From positions 372,001-436,000 of the forward strand of contig NZ_JAMSLS010000002.1 of the NCBI RefSeq assembly GCF_023806465.1: 64,000 bases of DNA, written 5' to 3'. Source of the DNA: Thermomicrobium sp. CFH 73360. Its GTDB lineage: Bacteria > Chloroflexota > Chloroflexia > Thermomicrobiales > Thermomicrobiaceae. Position numbers and translations under genes: made by a program. The notes beneath the pieces are model-generated. The model was not told the origin of the DNA, searched no databases, and saw nothing but the letters and a program-made list of their open reading frames with translations. Below, piece after piece: positions 32,647-43,460 of the stretch (its first letter is position 1; each line of letters starts with the position of its first letter).

Positions 32647-33432
32647 TCAGCCCTGCCCAGCCTCCAGCCGCGGGCGAGCGATCCCGTCATAAATCGCCCA
32701 CGCCTCCCAGTCCCATGCGCATCCCGCGATTCGTTCGCCAGTCGGTTGCCCGCTCCCTTCTGGTCCTGGCTCGACAGTGATCCCCATCCCTTGGTATGTC
32801 GTCCAGGGATCCCGCGCGTGGATCACAAGGAGCGCTCTCCCTTGAAAGTCTGGAAGGAATACCCCCGCACTATCTCGCCCGCCATCGGACCGGATGAGCC
32901 ATACCTGGTAGACGTGCCCCTTATCGGGACGTGGGAGTTCCTCAAGCACCACCAAGCCGGTTCGCCCCTCCCGATCCAAGTACACGCGCCCCACCCGGGC
33001 TGGCATGTCGGCTCGTTCGCCCTCCATCGCTGTCGACCAGTCCGCAGCTGCCAAGACCGCCGCGATACTTGCTTGTCGTGCTGCGAGCTCGTTGACCTGC
33101 CGGTCAGCTCGAGTGATCGCGAGCAGGAGTGCGAAGACAAGCAACACTGCCGCCGCTGCAAGCAGTCCACGCGCCCATGCCAACCGCCAGCGCTGGCGCC
33201 CCTCAAACGCAGCGGCGGCGAGGACGCGGGCACGCAGCGCCGGAGAGGGCTCGACTTGTGGCACCGCCGTCCCAAGCCAACCGAGTGCCTCTTCAATCCG
33301 AAGGAGCTCTGCCCGGCAGCGTTCACATCCTTCAAGATGTCGGGCAACACGTGCTGCCGTCTCGGGATCGAGTTCCCCGAGGGCATACTCCACGAGTTCC
33401 TGCTCATGTTCCGTCACCGCGTGTCCGTCCAT
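32647..33432 (-). CDS. RskA-type anti-sigma factor with zinc-finger N-terminus
   Basis: This is a single-pass membrane anti-sigma factor. The N-terminal cytoplasmic anti-sigma domain carries the HxxxCxxC motif (RHLEGCERC, about residue 30), one transmembrane helix follows at about residues 88-108 (ARGLLAAAAVLLVFALLLAI), and the outside domain is the anti-sigma-K (RskA) fold with KGHVYQVWLIRSDGG and GRALLVIHARDPW. Its start overlaps the sigma gene by 19 bp, so the pair is translationally coupled. It presumably holds the sigma factor inactive until an envelope signal triggers proteolysis. Confidence 0.92.
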   Translation of the reverse strand: MDGHAVTEHEQELVEYALGELDPETAARVARHLEGCERCRAELLRIEEALGWLGTAVPQVEPSPALRARVLAAAAFEGRQRWRLAWARGLLAAAAVLLVFALLLAITRADRQVNELAARQASIAAVLAAADWSTAMEGERADMPARVGRVYLDREGRTGLVVLEELPRPDKGHVYQVWLIRSDGGRDSAGVFLPDFQGRALLVIHARDPWTTYQGMGITVEPGPEGSGQPTGERIAGCAWDWEAWAIYDGIARPRLEAGQG

Positions 33433-33998
33433 AGCTCCCGGTCCCCCGCCAATGCTGCCGCGAGACGCTGCAGTGCCGTCCGAACCCGCGTCTTCACTGT
33501 TCCGAGCGGCACCCCCAATCGCTCGGCGATCTCCCGCTGCGTTAACCCTTCAAAGTACGCAAGCTCAATCACTTGTCGCAGACCGCTGTCCAGCTCAGCG
33601 AGCACCTGCCGAACACGGGCTACTGCCTCGTTCTGGAGCGCAGTGTCGTCGGGATCATTCTGGTTGGTGACATGCGTCGTCATCTCAAGGCGCCAGCTGA
33701 GTTGCCGCTCGCGAGTCCGCCGGCGTAGGACATCGATGGCACGATTCCGAGCCGAGCGAAGCAACCACGGACCAAATGGACCGCGTGCCGCATCATACAG
33801 CTGCGGGTACTGCCACACGTGGAAGAACAACTCTTGCGTCACCTCTTCGGCTGCTCCCGGATCGTGGAGGATACTCAACGCAAGTGAGTAGACCGACCGC
33901 GCATATCGGTCGTAGAGCACTTCCAACGCCGCTCGGTCCCGACTACGAACGCGCGCGACCAGTTCTGCGTCGCTCGCTTCACTCACGTCGGTGTCCAT
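33414..33998 (-). CDS. ECF RNA polymerase sigma factor (SigK-like)
   Basis: This is an extracytoplasmic-function sigma factor with region 2 (LYDRYARSVYSLALSILHDPGAAEEVTQELFFHVW) and region 4 (LRQVIELAYFEGLTQREIAERLGVPLGTVKTRVRTALQRL) but no region 3. It has 194 residues, typical of the SigK/ECF group paired with RskA. The overlap with the downstream anti-sigma gene is 19 bp. It is divergent from a membrane-anchored HtrA protease across a 112-bp spacer, which suggests that the protease gene or the shared spacer belongs to its regulon; no clear ECF promoter was found. Confidence 0.94.
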   Translation of the reverse strand: MDTDVSEASDAELVARVRSRDRAALEVLYDRYARSVYSLALSILHDPGAAEEVTQELFFHVWQYPQLYDAARGPFGPWLLRSARNRAIDVLRRRTRERQLSWRLEMTTHVTNQNDPDDTALQNEAVARVRQVLAELDSGLRQVIELAYFEGLTQREIAERLGVPLGTVKTRVRTALQRLAAALAGDRELWTDTR

Positions 33999-34110
33999 CC
34001 AGCCTGCCCGTTCGCCGTATCCGGCTCGACGTCTCTATCATACGCACTGCTCGGGGCGTAGGATTGACCTGCGAACCGGCCCGTGGTGCTGGGGGAGGGA
34101 GGACGAACCG

Positions 34111-35265
34111 ATGCGTCGCAGCATGATCGGAGCGATTGCGGTGATCGCATTCCTCGCTGGCTGGATCGCCGGGAGCGGGTGTCTTCGTGTCCGGATCGCT
34201 GCGAGCCCCACACAGTCAGCCCGCATCATAGCGACAGCGGCACCCACTCCGAGCACTGCACCGATCACCCTCGGCTCCACACCATCGCGCAGTCCGTCAG
34301 TGATCCCTCCCGCGCCAGCTCCAGGCAGTGACTTCGCAACTGCGATCGAAAGTGTCGCGGCTCAGGTGACGCCAGCTGTCGTCTACGTCGCTACCCGAGC
34401 CATCGTGCCCAGCCTGTTTGGCTTCGGCCAGATCCAACAAGGTGTAGGATCCGGCGTCATCTTCGATCCACGTGGCTACATCCTCACCAATGACCACGTC
34501 ATCGCCGGAGCACAAGAAATCCTCGTCGTGCTTGGTGATGGGCGCCAGTTTACCGGCCATGTGATCGGCCGCTCGCCCGTCAACGACATCGCAGTGGTGA
34601 AGATCGACGGGGACAATCTCCCCGTCGCATCACTGGGCGACAGCGACCAGCTTCGAGTCGGCCAGTGGGTTGTCGCGATTGGCAACGCGCTCGGCCTCGA
34701 GGGCGGACCAACAGTGACTGCAGGTGTCGTCAGTGCGCTGAGCCGTACCATCACACCCGGTCCAGGGGAGCCCGCGATCGGGCCACTCATTCAGACTGAC
34801 GCCGCCATTAATCCGGGGAACTCAGGCGGACCTCTTGTGAATCTTGCAGGAGAAGTCGTCGGCATCAATAGCGCCAAGATTCAGACAGCGGAAGGAATTG
34901 GATTCGCCATCCCAATCAACAAGGCCAAGGAGATCGTGCAACAGCTGCTCGAAGCCCGTCCGCGAGCCTATCTCGGTATCACCTCTGTCTCCGTGACCCC
35001 GGCACTCGCCGCTGCCTACGGACTCCCCGTCAGTCGCGGTGTCCTCGTGGTCGACGTGGAAGCAGGTGGACCAGCAGATCAGGCCGGCATCCAGCCAGGG
35101 GACATCATCGTCGGCTTCGACAACCGGACAATCACGAACGCCAACGATCTGCAAGCAGCCCTTGGTACGCACCAGCCGGGCGACCAGGTCACAGTGACTG
35201 TTCATCGTGGGGGCCGTGAAGAGCGCCTCACCGTCACGCTCGGGGTTGCTCCAGTTGTCCAATAA
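34111..35265 (+). CDS. HtrA/DegP-like serine protease, membrane-anchored, one PDZ
   Basis: This is an envelope quality-control protease. It has an N-terminal signal anchor (IGAIAVIAFLAGWIAGSG), a Ser/Thr/Pro-rich linker and a trypsin-like domain with the catalytic triad His (TNDHVIAG), Asp (NDIAVVKI) and Ser (GNSGGPLV), then one PDZ domain (YLGITSVSVTP...). About 384 residues. The ATG at 34111 follows GGGAGGGAGGA. It is divergent from the sigma/anti-sigma pair, supporting an envelope-stress role, and is followed by a methyltransferase 16 bp later. Confidence 0.93.
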   Translation: MRRSMIGAIAVIAFLAGWIAGSGCLRVRIAASPTQSARIIATAAPTPSTAPITLGSTPSRSPSVIPPAPAPGSDFATAIESVAAQVTPAVVYVATRAIVPSLFGFGQIQQGVGSGVIFDPRGYILTNDHVIAGAQEILVVLGDGRQFTGHVIGRSPVNDIAVVKIDGDNLPVASLGDSDQLRVGQWVVAIGNALGLEGGPTVTAGVVSALSRTITPGPGEPAIGPLIQTDAAINPGNSGGPLVNLAGEVVGINSAKIQTAEGIGFAIPINKAKEIVQQLLEARPRAYLGITSVSVTPALAAAYGLPVSRGVLVVDVEAGGPADQAGIQPGDIIVGFDNRTITNANDLQAALGTHQPGDQVTVTVHRGGREERLTVTLGVAPVVQ

Positions 35266-38063: not shown

Positions 38064-39329
38064 GTGTCACGCAATATCCCTACAATACCCACTACCCAGC
38101 GAACGTTTTTGACTCGTCTGCGTGACTCGCTGAACGAGAGTGCATTAGCTGTCCCGGCTTATCGCCGCTTCTGGCTCAGTATGCTCATTTCGAATGTCGG
38201 CAGTTGGCTTCAGCTCGTCGCCCAAGGGTGGCTGATCCTTGCACTGACGAATTCCCCGCTCTATCTCGGGTTCTATGGGCTCCTCCGTTCCGTTCCAACG
38301 CTGACCATCACCCTCATCGGCGGCGCGATTGCCGACCGCATTGATCGGCGCAAGATCCTGCTCGTCACGCAGTCGTCTGCAGCAGCACTCGCGTTCCTCC
38401 TCGGTTTTCTCGATCTCACCGGATTGGTTCGCCCCTGGCAGATCCTCGCTATTGCCTTCGCCACTGCGACAGTCATGGCGTTCGATAACCCAGCCCGACA
38501 AGCGATGGTGCCAGGCCTTGTTGGGCATGAACGCGTTCCCTCCGCAGTCGGTCTGAATTCGGCTGGGTGGAATGCAGCTGCTGTTCTCGGGCCCTCGCTT
38601 GCTGGCATGCTCGTTGCCGCTGCGGGTACTGGCTGGGCCTTTGTGTTGAACGGGCTGAGCTACCTCCCAGTCATTTGGGCAGTCTGGACCTTGCAACCAG
38701 CACGCCCGAGCGGGACAACGAGCACACCTCTGCTTGCCCATGTGGCAATCGGCATCCACGCAGCGCAGCGAGACCGTCGTCTGCTCGGACTGCTGACGCT
38801 CCTTGCAGTCCCCACGTTCCTCGGCCGCCCGTACTTGCAGCTGATGCCAGTCTTCGCAAGTGATGTCCTCCACACCAGTGCAGCTGGCTACGGGGCGCTG
38901 ATGGGAATCAACGGGGCAGGAGCATTAGCCGGTGCATTACTCGTCGGGCGAGTAAGCAAGTATCCAAAACGCGGGCAGCTCCTCTTCTTCGTGAATATTG
39001 CCTTCGCCACAACGCTGATTGCCTTTGCGGCTTCGCACCAACCCGTCCTCTCCGCCGTGCTCCTCTTCGCGGTTGGCGCCAGCCAGACGCTCCTCATGGC
39101 ACTCACGAACACACTCCTCCAGCTGATCGTGCCAGACGAGTTCCGTGGACGTGTCATGGCGCTCTACACGCTGATCCCGATGGGCTTCATGCCGCTCGGT
39201 ACGATGGCACTGGGCAGTATCGGGGACGTGCTCGGTGTTCCCTTTACGGTCGCAGTGGCGGCCGGTCTTGCACTCGGCTTCACGTTCGCCGGTCGCCGCC
39301 TTTTCCCCGAAGTCTATCGGCTCCCTTAA
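38064..39329 (+). CDS. MFS transporter (MFS_3/EntS-like exporter)
   Basis: This is a 12-helix major-facilitator exporter of the MFS_3 type, similar to enterobactin and drug exporters. The N-half has AYRRFWLSMLISNVGSWLQLVAQGW and the conserved ADRIDRRKILLVTQ loop after helix 2; the linker and second half have PDEFRGRVMALYTLIPMG. 421 residues, full length. GTG 38064 follows TAGGAG with a 6-base spacer. It is convergent with the next HtrA gene: the two stop codons share the palindromic TTAA at 39326-39329. Substrate unknown. Confidence 0.9.
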   Translation: MSRNIPTIPTTQRTFLTRLRDSLNESALAVPAYRRFWLSMLISNVGSWLQLVAQGWLILALTNSPLYLGFYGLLRSVPTLTITLIGGAIADRIDRRKILLVTQSSAAALAFLLGFLDLTGLVRPWQILAIAFATATVMAFDNPARQAMVPGLVGHERVPSAVGLNSAGWNAAAVLGPSLAGMLVAAAGTGWAFVLNGLSYLPVIWAVWTLQPARPSGTTSTPLLAHVAIGIHAAQRDRRLLGLLTLLAVPTFLGRPYLQLMPVFASDVLHTSAAGYGALMGINGAGALAGALLVGRVSKYPKRGQLLFFVNIAFATTLIAFAASHQPVLSAVLLFAVGASQTLLMALTNTLLQLIVPDEFRGRVMALYTLIPMGFMPLGTMALGSIGDVLGVPFTVAVAAGLALGFTFAGRRLFPEVYRLP

Positions 39330-40372
39330 ACCTCCCGGTTCGGCTCAGCGGCGAGTTCTGCACGCAGCGTCAACAGACGTCCCTGACGGATCACCCCGAG
39401 CACCACCGAACTCCCAAGCGGTGTACGACTCAGCATCCGCTGCAGATCAGCTGGGGAACGCAGCGGCACACCGTCCAGGCTGACAATCATGTCGCCCGGC
39501 CGCAAGCCAGCTCGCTCCGCCGGGCTACCGGCAATCACCTGGAGCACGGCGACGCCAGCCGCCTGGGACGCTCCTCGTTCCGGAACAAAACGGCCCGGCA
39601 CAGTGCGCAGTTCACCGACGATGCCTAACCAGGCACGCTGCACGCGTCCTCCGCGCAAGAGTTGCCCAACCACCCACTGCGCCGTGTTGGCCGGAACCGC
39701 GAAGCTCAACCCCTGCGCCCCTGCCACAATCGCAGTATTGACACCAATCACCTTCCCACGCGTATCGACCAGTGGGCCACCAGAGTTCCCCGGGTTGAGC
39801 GGCGCATCAGTCTGAATGACGTTCTCAATGACACGCCCATCCGGACCACGCAACGAACGCCCCAGCGCTGAGACCACTCCGGTGACGACGCTCGCCTGCA
39901 ACCCCAATGGGTTACCGATGGCGATGACGAGCTGACCAACCTGTAGGCGATCAGAGTCGCCGAGCTCAGCCACCGGCAAATCATTGGCGTGGACACGCAC
40001 CACGGCAAGATCCGTAGCAGGGTCTTCGCCGACCAGTTGCGCAGGGAGTTCACTCCCATCCGCGAGCGTCACCGCGATGCGACGTGCACGGTGGACGACA
40101 TGGCTGTTGGTGACAATATACCCGTCCGGCGCAATCACGAACCCCGAGCCCGCACCAGGCACCTCTGCCGAGCGGCGAGGAGCGCCGAAGGTGCGCATGA
40201 CCTGCACACCAACAACTGCTGGTGCTACCCGTTGTACGACGCGGACGACAGCCTGCGAGAAAGCATCGAGCAACGTCTCTGGCTCAGCTGCCTCGACGCG
40301 GTTCGTCGCGTTCGCAATTGGCTCGTGCTCGTCACCACGGATGGGATAGATTGTGAACGGCTGTCGCAGCAT
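39326..40372 (-). CDS. Signal-less HtrA-like trypsin/PDZ protease (predicted cytoplasmic)
   Basis: This is an HtrA-family serine protease with His91 (TNSHVVH), Asp121 (TDLAVVRV) and Ser197 (GNSGGPLV), and one PDZ domain from about residue 250. Unusually, it has no signal peptide or transmembrane segment: the 50 N-terminal residues are polar. The ATG at 40372 is firmly placed by AGGAGGAAACAGATC, so this is not a start-choice artefact. It lies 22 bp behind an RHH-type protein gene on the same strand. It may act on cytoplasmic substrates or be membrane-associated through a partner. Compare the anchored paralogue at 34111. Confidence 0.88.
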   Translation of the reverse strand: MLRQPFTIYPIRGDEHEPIANATNRVEAAEPETLLDAFSQAVVRVVQRVAPAVVGVQVMRTFGAPRRSAEVPGAGSGFVIAPDGYIVTNSHVVHRARRIAVTLADGSELPAQLVGEDPATDLAVVRVHANDLPVAELGDSDRLQVGQLVIAIGNPLGLQASVVTGVVSALGRSLRGPDGRVIENVIQTDAPLNPGNSGGPLVDTRGKVIGVNTAIVAGAQGLSFAVPANTAQWVVGQLLRGGRVQRAWLGIVGELRTVPGRFVPERGASQAAGVAVLQVIAGSPAERAGLRPGDMIVSLDGVPLRSPADLQRMLSRTPLGSSVVLGVIRQGRLLTLRAELAAEPNREV

Positions 40373-40394
40373 GATCTGTTTCCTCCTGTTTGAA

Positions 40395-40937
40395 TCACGG
40401 CTCTCGTTTGGTTGATTCCGCCCCTGGGCCAGATTGGCGAAGTTCCTGCACCCGTATCAGTGCCTGCCGGAGCTCCTCCAGCCAGTCCGCCTCGTGTCTC
40501 CCGACCAACCGAACACACCAGGCCAGCGCCTCGCTACGGCTCCGCGCCACGCCTGCTTCGACGAGCGTGTCCAACACCTGCCGCTCGGCAAGCCGCAGTC
40601 GCGTCATCACCGGGACACTGAGGACCGTGAAGAGTTGCTGGACAGGTCCACACGTCGCTCCCCAGGAGACTTTCCGGCCAAACCGATACTCGGCCTCGCT
40701 GGCGATACGCATACGCTGCCCACGTGTCTCTTCGCGGAAGCGCTGGATACGCGCGACGCAGGCTGCATGACGCTCTTCCTGGCTTGCTCCCTCAGGAAGG
40801 ACCGGCTCAGGAAGTCGACCGATAACGAGAATCTCGTCACGGTCGTACGTAATCTCTGGTGGCTCGACAAACCAGCCCTCAGGCAAGCGACCCACAAACC
40901 AGGCCAGAAGTTCTGCGGCAAACGGATCCCTTTTCAT
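40395..40937 (-). CDS. Ribbon-helix-helix-like protein of unknown function
   Basis: This is a 180-residue protein. The C-terminal part fits a ribbon-helix-helix DNA-binding fold: a short strand (MTRLRLAER), helix A (QVLDTLVEAGV) and the turn SRSEALAWCVRLV starting helix B. The N-terminal domain (MKRDPFAAELLAWFVGRL...) I do not recognise. ATG 40937 follows GAAGGGAG with a 7-base spacer; the ATG at 40967 is less likely. It is the first gene of a two-gene operon with the signal-less HtrA. A TGTCG-ATTG-CGACA palindrome just upstream could be its own operator. A DNA-binding role is an inference. Confidence 0.65.
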   Translation of the reverse strand: MKRDPFAAELLAWFVGRLPEGWFVEPPEITYDRDEILVIGRLPEPVLPEGASQEERHAACVARIQRFREETRGQRMRIASEAEYRFGRKVSWGATCGPVQQLFTVLSVPVMTRLRLAERQVLDTLVEAGVARSRSEALAWCVRLVGRHEADWLEELRQALIRVQELRQSGPGAESTKREP

Positions 40938-40952
40938 CAGAAAGCTCCCTTC

Positions 40953-41000
40953 TGTCGATTGCGACAATTACAGTATTACACAAGCCAAGCCGATCAACAA
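40953..41000 (-). promoter_or_regulatory. Promoter and palindrome of the RHH-HtrA operon
   Basis: On the minus strand, TTGTTG (41000-40995), a 16-bp spacer and TAATAC (40978-40973). A perfect palindrome TGTCG/CGACA (40953-40957, 40962-40966) lies between the -10 and the ribosome-binding site. Confidence 0.55.
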
Positions 41001-42026
41001 CCCTAAGACACCAGCCGCCGATCACGCAGCCGTTGATACGGTTCTGCACTCGGCGTGTGGTATTCCCGCACGACGGAACTCTTCTGCTGAGCAGCGTGGG
41101 TGGTCAGACCTTCAGAGCGTTGTCGATCTCCGTTCAGCTGGGACACGTTCACGAGAGCGCTCGTCACTGCAGCAGACCGCTGACCAGTCTGCTCACGGAG
41201 TCGGAATGTCATCAGAAGGTACCGCTGACGGTCTCGTAGCCTGCCCGTAGCGTCACCTCTTGTACCACCACCCGGCTCCCAGCCTCCGTGAGGCCATCTT
41301 GGTATCCACGCTGAGCGTCGCCAGAGCTCGAGACTTGCCTGACGGATACCACGGGTTCGCGCTGTACCGTGCGCAGGATCAGACGGCCTCAGAGACTCTG
41401 CACAACGCAGATCCCAAGCAGGGGGTAGATCAGTCCTGCCTCAGGCAATCTCCTCTAGCAACTGGCCGTGTTCGCTCGGTAGGATGCTGCCGTGGGTACT
41501 GCACGTGCCACCCCGATCCCAGACCGCCCGCTGCCCACCCCCGCAACAGGAACAAAAGGAAGTAGAAGCGACGAGCGAGCGTGCACCGCCGTGAATGTGC
41601 ACTCGGCACCCTAAACCGAGCTCCTCACTGTCCAAGCGGAGCAGCCGATCCGCATGCCATGCCGTGTATCAGTTCACGAAGAAAATATCCCACGAGGCAA
41701 ACGACCGATGGAGGAGCGCAATGTCTTGTGTCTGCAGACTCCTGAGACAGCATGTCCCGCGCCTGTACGCGCCATCGGATGTAGTGGGACCACTGTTACG
41801 TACTGCCGGGCCGAACTCTCGAGCCAGCTGGTGCGATACATTTCCCCTACACAGAACTGCCGGATGCAAGACCTCGACCCGCGAGCGCATCTCCGCTGAC
41901 GACCCCAGGCATCTGGTTGCATTACCGACTTGTGACGCCGGTGGACGTGATAAATCGTGCCCCGACGAAAGACATGCCGCTTACAAGTGGCCGATACCGG
42001 AGCTTCCAAAATCCCGCGAAACTCGT
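41001..42026. other. Gene-poor intergenic region
   Basis: About 1 kb lie between the RHH operon and the chemoreceptors. Short overlapping frames occur in all directions but none has a domain or a good start site. No repeat array, tRNA or insertion-sequence end was seen. Confidence 0.5.
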
Positions 42027-43460
42027 TCACACGGTCCGCAAAGAGTCCAGGAGTTGCACGATTTCGCCCGAGATGCGACGAACCTCTTCCACAAGTTCGC
42101 GCGCCCGCTCGCGGTCACCTCGATTCCAGGCACGTACTGCCTCGGCAGCTGTCTGGTGCAAACGCTGGTGCGGCGCTTCCAGCGAACGGAAAATGTTCGA
42201 CGTGCCGTACCGCTCGCGACCACGTCCGTAGTACCAGCGCCCAAGCCGGCAGGCTGTCCAGTCTGCGACTTGCTCAGGCTGCAGTTGCTCGCGCCCGTGC
42301 AGCATCGCCAACAGGCGCTGGACCCAGAGCAAGTGATCAGCCTTTGCCACCAGCACCAGCTGCGTATCGGTCAGCGGCAGCATCGTCTGCGCCACCAGTT
42401 CCCGCATCGTCCGGAGGCGCTGCATCTGGTCAAGGACACCCACCGTGAGTTCACCTGCCCGATCCCCCACACGTTCAGCAACGGCAGCCACCTGCGCTAC
42501 ATTCCGCGCTAGTTGCCCGACCGCCTGCGCCTGTTCCTCCGCTGCGGAGGCAATCTCCTGCAGCGGCGCCACGATTGCATCGACGGCCTTACGAATCGCT
42601 GTCAATGCCTCTTGTCCACCGGCCGCAACTGCCGCCCCGCTTTCAACTTGATCAGCCACGATGCCCATCGCCTCACCAACGCGTTGCATCCCCTCAGAGA
42701 GGGCCTGCACCTGGTTACGGATGCCGGAGACCGCCTCTTGTGTCGAAACTGCAAGTCGCCGAACCTCCTCGGCGACAACCGCGAACCCGCGGCCATGCTC
42801 TCCTGCTCGTGCTGCCTCGATTGCCGCGTTGAGCGCGAGAAGATTCGTCTGCTTGGCAATCGTGGCAATAGTCCCGAGAACCTGCGTGATGGGGCCAACT
42901 GCTTTCGACAAGTCCTCGATCCGCTGCTGGAGCTCCGAGACAGAGCGAGTCACACTTGCAAGTGACTGCAGAGCTTCGGTGACTCGCGCGATTCCGGCCT
43001 CGGCACGCTCCGCTGCACCACGCGCCGCCTCCGAGACCTGGCCGACGCTCCCCGAGACGACCTCCACCGAGGTCGCAAGTTCCCGCGCTACCTGAGCTGC
43101 CTCTACCGCTTGCTCTTGCTGTTCCCGGAAGGCACGGAGAAACTCGTCGGCTGCTCGGACCGGCACGAGCCCCTCCGCCACCGCACCTGAGGCAGCAAGC
43201 AGGAGGTCGATAATCCGCTCTCGCCAAGTCGCGACCACCGGTTCCCACACTGGACGGATCTCTGGAGGCAGTTGTCGAACCACCTGCTCTGCCTCAACAA
43301 GGTCGCCACGCGCCAGGGCATCGGCGAGCGCACGAAGTGCACCGAGCCAGGTCGGCTGTGAGTCCTGGTCGGCGATCTCCAGAGCCACCCCTTCCCTGAC
43401 TGCACGACCGCTTCCTTTCGTCACACGCAAGTCCGCCTCAAGTGTGCTTCGCTCCGTCAT
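42027..43460 (-). CDS. Soluble chemoreceptor with C-terminal CZB zinc-binding domain
   Basis: This is a methyl-accepting chemotaxis-type protein without transmembrane segments. The N-terminal helical region (1-100) is followed by the MCP signalling coiled coil with its tip [27 protein letters not shown] (about 201-227), split here for clarity as the conserved hairpin. The C-terminal part is a CZB (chemoreceptor zinc-binding) domain: His376 (DHLLW), Cys404 (CRLGRWYYG), His431 and His435 (PHQRLH). CZB domains bind zinc and can sense zinc or hypochlorous acid. Start ATG 43460 after GGGAGGG. It lies 93 bp behind a second soluble receptor. No che genes are in the window. Confidence 0.9.

Follow-up and report, generated by a model that had tools for sequence, protein, structure and literature searches.

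The AbmR-HtrA locus

What controls a protease of the HtrA type that carries no export signal? The question is raised by two genes on the minus strand of Thermomicrobium sp. CFH 73360, within a window of 64,000 nucleotides (the whole stretch of DNA that was analysed). A gene for a 180-residue protein is followed by htrA, and the original prediction read the pair as a self-regulated module. The features of the locus are, in the direction of transcription:

40995..41000, minus strand: -35-like hexamer TTGTTG (sequence)
40978-40973, minus strand: -10 box TAATAC, 16 bp from TTGTTG at 41000-40995 (sequence)
40967..40980, minus strand: TGTAAT-AC-TGTAAT, a tandem direct repeat that overlaps the -10 box and is the putative operator for AbmR
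40953..40966, minus strand: TGTCG/CGACA palindrome, not conserved, probably fortuitous (relatives and shuffles)
40395..40937, minus strand: abmR orthologue, 180 aa (NF058631 equivalog match, AlphaFold2 models, Foldseek)
39326..40372, minus strand: signal-less HtrA-type serine protease, 348 aa (Pfam, triad alignment, tree)

The gap between abmR and htrA is 22 bp, and a ribosome-binding site precedes each gene. When the reading frames, this gap, the ribosome-binding site and the promoter hexamers (TTGTTG-16-TAATAC) were derived again, all came out as first described. The -35-like hexamer is poorly conserved; family members have TTGACG or TTGACA instead. A scan for consensus promoters and terminators gave no match. 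The stretch of about 1 kb between a chemoreceptor-like gene and abmR (41006-42026) contains no convincing gene and is poorly conserved even within the genus.

The regulator

By sequence comparison, the 180-residue regulator is an orthologue of AbmR (Rv1265), a known family that the original prediction overlooked. It matches the NCBIfam equivalog model for AbmR (NF058631) with 257.5 bits, for a cutoff of 160, over model positions 3-166 of 167. In Mycobacterium tuberculosis, Rv1265/AbmR is an ATP-binding and DNA-binding transcription factor that activates the small RNA Mcr11 (reviewed in PMC8628891). A Pfam search with the Thermomicrobium protein found no significant domain.

AlphaFold2 models (41 homologues) divide AbmR into an N-terminal alpha-beta domain predicted with confidence (residues ~1-105) and a C-terminal RHH-like domain (~106-172), where RHH stands for ribbon-helix-helix. 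A low-confidence linker is followed by helices 116-127 and 134-169. When the C-terminal part is modelled alone, it forms two helices (14-25 and 32-67) in an RHH arrangement. The top 12 Foldseek matches of this model are all RHH antitoxins (ParD1, ParD, ParD2, MazE-mt1, PrpA and TacA2/TacA), each of them weak with an E-value of 1 or more. VIA comparisons of the model with RHH proteins reach Z scores of 4.6-5.5. ParD is also a sub-threshold sequence match to AbmR (E 0.58 in PDB, 0.07 in Pfam); the Pfam ParD_antitoxin match is found for 7 of 21 members and scores under the gathering threshold. An invariant stretch of AbmR, VMTRLR..ER.xLDTLxxxGxxRSRSEALAWCV, is compatible with strand-helix-helix. 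The N-terminal strand, which in RHH proteins forms an intermolecular two-stranded sheet, is absent from the AbmR monomer predictions.

Because the sequence, Foldseek and VIA signals agree, though none is significant alone, a ribbon-helix-helix is the most likely fold of the C-terminal domain. The RHH-like DNA-binding domain that had been proposed for the regulator hence gains support. The abstract of the primary AbmR paper (2018) reportedly calls AbmR auto-inhibitory, places critical arginines in its C-terminus and describes the fold as new. The searchable literature, whose coverage does not extend to that paper, contains neither an RHH assignment for AbmR nor an operator like the one described below.

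For the N-terminal domain, AlphaFold2 predicts with confidence an alpha-beta-beta-alpha-alpha-beta order, and KH-II-like uS3 domains are among its best VIA matches, with Z at most 7.3. Since these scores fall within the stated background and Foldseek gave no significant match, the KH-II-like assignment was dropped and no fold is claimed.

The protease

Pfam recognises Trypsin_2 (3e-39) and PDZ_6 (3.6e-16) in the HtrA protein, with a single PDZ domain at about 267-339. The triad His91/Asp121/Ser197 aligns across all 51 HtrAs compared, so the protease is intact at its catalytic residues and carries a PDZ domain, as had been claimed.

Neither a signal peptide nor a membrane anchor was found. In the first 70 residues, the best 19-residue Kyte-Doolittle mean is 1.43, a peak that falls inside the protease domain; the anchored paralogues encoded by this genome reach 1.95-2.9. 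In a near-identical sister genome a stop codon lies 24 bp (eight codons) upstream of the htrA ATG; therefore a hidden signal peptide does not fit. The hydrophobicity profile and the stop codon together bear out the earlier description of the protein as signal-less.

In a maximum-likelihood tree, the HtrAs linked to abmR and other signal-less HtrAs form one group separate from the anchored HtrAs (support 100/99). The protein scores under the curated cutoffs of every named Deg model, and no report of a Thermomicrobium HtrA was found in the searchable literature. The home genome encodes two more HtrAs, one of them anchored and 5 kb away inside the window. Genes for an ECF-like sigma factor and an anti-sigma-like protein adjoin this second HtrA (32647-35265).

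Linkage of abmR and htrA

In the home family, htrA adjoins abmR in every AbmR-bearing genome (11/11). Among the 47 full-length AbmR loci from other parts of the phylum, 16 have an adjoining htrA; these belong to five further families, which brings the tandem to six families overall. Most gaps between the genes linked outside the home family measure some -11 to +21 bp, so that the two overlap or nearly abut. Every linked HtrA belongs to one signal-less subfamily in the tree. The expectation that relatives would share both the linkage and the palindrome is thus half borne out: the linkage to signal-less htrA recurs across the six families, and the palindrome is not conserved.

Among the Actinomycetota AbmR loci examined, none has htrA nearby. 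Most AbmR genes lack a neighbouring htrA, and therefore htrA cannot be the general function of AbmR.

A tandem repeat at the abmR promoter

The operator was originally placed at the TGTCG/CGACA palindrome (40953-40966), which is present and perfect in the window. It is broken in the closest sister, which is 98% identical, and missing in other relatives. Sites matching TGTCGNNNNCGACA at one mismatch number 3 in the window for a shuffle mean of 4.5, so they are no commoner than expected by chance. Not being conserved, the palindrome is ruled out as operator.

Conserved instead is a tandem repeat next to the palindrome and over the -10 box, TGTAAT-AC-TGTAAT (40980-40967). Of 195 distinct upstream regions of abmR-family genes, from Chloroflexota to Actinomycetota, 151 contain GTAA words at a spacing of exactly 8 bp. 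In 34 of the 195 upstream regions they are 16 bp apart, and 8 and 16 bp are the peaks of the spacing distribution. Background windows taken from the same loci contain no such pairs (0/191). An earlier upstream count found TGTAATNNNGTAAT in 58 of 135 cases, compared to 0.0 in shuffles.

The repeat is also close to unique. In the home genome (3.06 Mb) it is the sole site at up to one mismatch. Across 41 relatives, the exact repeat occurs in 10 of 12 AbmR-bearing genomes, always at abmR, but in only 1 of 29 genomes without AbmR (Fisher p 6e-7). In 48 further genomes (32 from the wider group and 16 that are mostly actinobacterial) the 13-mer was found once or twice each; almost all of these sites lie at abmR or its paralogue, and the reversed pattern, used as control, has 0 occurrences. 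One-mismatch sites elsewhere in relatives were treated as background; they are mostly intragenic or stand before no clear open reading frame. One further repeat-like site (G277:C136) lies inside an open reading frame and is probably due to chance.

From this conservation we infer that AbmR binds the repeat at 40980-40967. The proposed autoregulation is supported by a conserved, near-unique repeat at abmR, and not by the palindrome.

At six Streptomyces loci (L053, L057, L075, L079, L083 and L094) the repeat words are partly inverted (GAGTAATCGTCATTACATGATTAC), suggesting a box that is readable in both directions. One genome of the same order that has AbmR (L329, around position 2000) carries a triple repeat (CGTAATTGTGTAATGAGGTAAT) before a 131-aa open reading frame.

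A proposed model of autoregulation

We consider it probable that abmR and htrA form an autoregulated operon, in which AbmR, an RHH protein, regulates its own gene together with that of a cytoplasmic protease. This reading builds on comparative evidence: the orthology of AbmR, its RHH-like C-terminus, the conserved and near-unique operator, the recurrent linkage to htrA, the missing export signal and the intact triad.

In the model, AbmR would dimerise via its C-terminal ribbon-helix-helix and cover the -10 element and the start site of its own promoter by binding the 8-bp boxes (TGTAATNN) that lie there in tandem. Bound AbmR would limit transcription of abmR and of the translationally close htrA. 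If a signal released AbmR, then the PDZ-carrying HtrA would be made in the cytoplasm, where it would remove or hold damaged proteins. This scheme presumes an inducing signal, activity of the protease in the cytoplasm and a repressing effect of AbmR. The sign of regulation is tentative, because AbmR has been described as activating Mcr11 in M. tuberculosis (PMC8628891).

Alternative explanations

AbmR could be a direct partner of HtrA as well as a regulator. HtrA would then degrade AbmR or be activated by it, and proteolysis would feed back on the operon. What favours such contact comes from a second AbmR-like gene, found in many genomes of one family (f28), which encodes the N-domain without the RHH part and usually stands under the same TGTAAT repeat (loci L167, L168-L174, L228, L244, L290-L297 and L301). 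Five of these paralogues lie directly before a signal-less htrA, under that repeat. Their C-termini (n=23) end in Phe in 19 cases and in Val in three, and a variable Gly/Arg-rich linker runs ahead of the terminal Phe (-SQVF, -SQIF, -WQNF, -FQNF, -GRWF, -VRYF). No full-length AbmR ends in Phe. HtrA PDZ domains take C-terminal ligands (DegS and YxF). The Phe tails resemble such ligands, which suggests that the N-domain protein may contact HtrA. However, the AbmR of the window ends in -KREP, which is no such ligand. For AbmR itself we regard direct partnership as rather unlikely.

Alternatively, the TGTAAT repeat could be part of the promoter or bind a different regulator, and the adjacency of abmR and htrA could be a conserved gene order without regulatory meaning. 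The first TGTAAT does contain the -10 box TAATAC, and promoters of single genes can be conserved. However, a -10 box leaves the second and third copies, at exact 8-bp steps across phyla, unexplained. The repeat is nearly absent elsewhere in genomes that have thousands of promoters, and its co-occurrence with AbmR also speaks against this explanation.

So does the presence of the repeat at protease genes away from abmR. In two genomes (G068 and G069) a signal-less htrA stands apart from abmR, with the repeat variant GTAATCTTGTAAC directly before its ATG. Signal-less htrA genes occur in AbmR-less genomes as well (L103-L107), and no such repeat precedes the htrA genes of AbmR-less genomes. In two Acidimicrobiia genomes only (G073 and G470; L242/L341 and L249/L340), exact GTAATNNTGTAAT sites away from abmR stand just before lon, which makes lon a possible member of the AbmR regulon there. 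The repeats at solitary htrA and at lon are two independent signs of a tie between AbmR and proteases beyond adjacency. We judge the promoter-element explanation improbable.

In two related genomes (L240 and L243) the repeat is directly followed by the ATG of a gene for a luciferase-like (PF00296) oxidoreductase. In an Actinoplanes genome (L251) the repeat precedes an open reading frame starting MTGVETTLYEHVGG, a putative truncated haemoglobin.

It is very improbable that AbmR here mainly controls a small RNA, as it controls Mcr11 in M. tuberculosis (PMC8628891), with htrA as a passenger: the kilobase upstream of abmR is gene-poor, as this would have it, but an Rfam search of 39000-42200 gave no match, so that a small RNA near abmR was rejected, upstream conservation stops about 60 bp before the abmR start, and the home genome has no other repeat site.

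The autoregulated operon is thus the reading we prefer. A wider one is offered tentatively: AbmR may found a class of RHH regulators that occurs in both Chloroflexota and Actinomycetota, recognises TGTAATNN boxes in tandem and controls proteolysis in the cytoplasm, through signal-less HtrA in Chloroflexota and Lon in Acidimicrobiia. The RHH-less paralogue with its PDZ-ligand tail might then serve as protease adaptor, activator or sacrificial substrate.

Comparison with known systems

No earlier report of an AbmR-controlled HtrA operon was found in the searchable papers. If the RHH domain and the conserved operator are real, then the binding site and regulon of AbmR, a little-understood regulator of M. 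tuberculosis, can be tested directly. HtrA proteases are known in bacteria chiefly from the envelope, and a member that lacks an export signal yet has a regulator of its own would point to a role in the cytoplasm. To judge by the lon sites, the AbmR family may control proteolysis more widely.

The Thermomicrobium protein resembles AbmR/Rv1265 of M. tuberculosis in its full-length family match, and the same repeat precedes many Mycobacteriales abmR genes. In contrast to Rv1265, the Thermomicrobium gene leads an operon with htrA, and no Mcr11-like RNA was found.

With RHH repressors (MetJ, omega repressor, ParD-type antitoxins) AbmR would share the strand-helix-helix pattern containing ...LDTLVEAGVARSRSEAL... 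and operators built from short boxes repeated in tandem at a constant step. The met boxes of MetJ are likewise tandem with an 8-bp step. Unlike these repressors, AbmR adds a large N-terminal domain and has no toxin partner, and its sequence similarity to them stays below family thresholds.

The protease shares Trypsin_2, the triad, the GNSGG motif and the PDZ domain with HtrA/Deg proteases (DegP, DegQ, DegS, HhoA). It differs from them in lacking a signal peptide or anchor, in scoring below the named Deg cutoffs and in belonging to a separate subfamily. Export or anchoring is typical of bacterial DegP and DegS, but it is not required in the wider S1C protease family.
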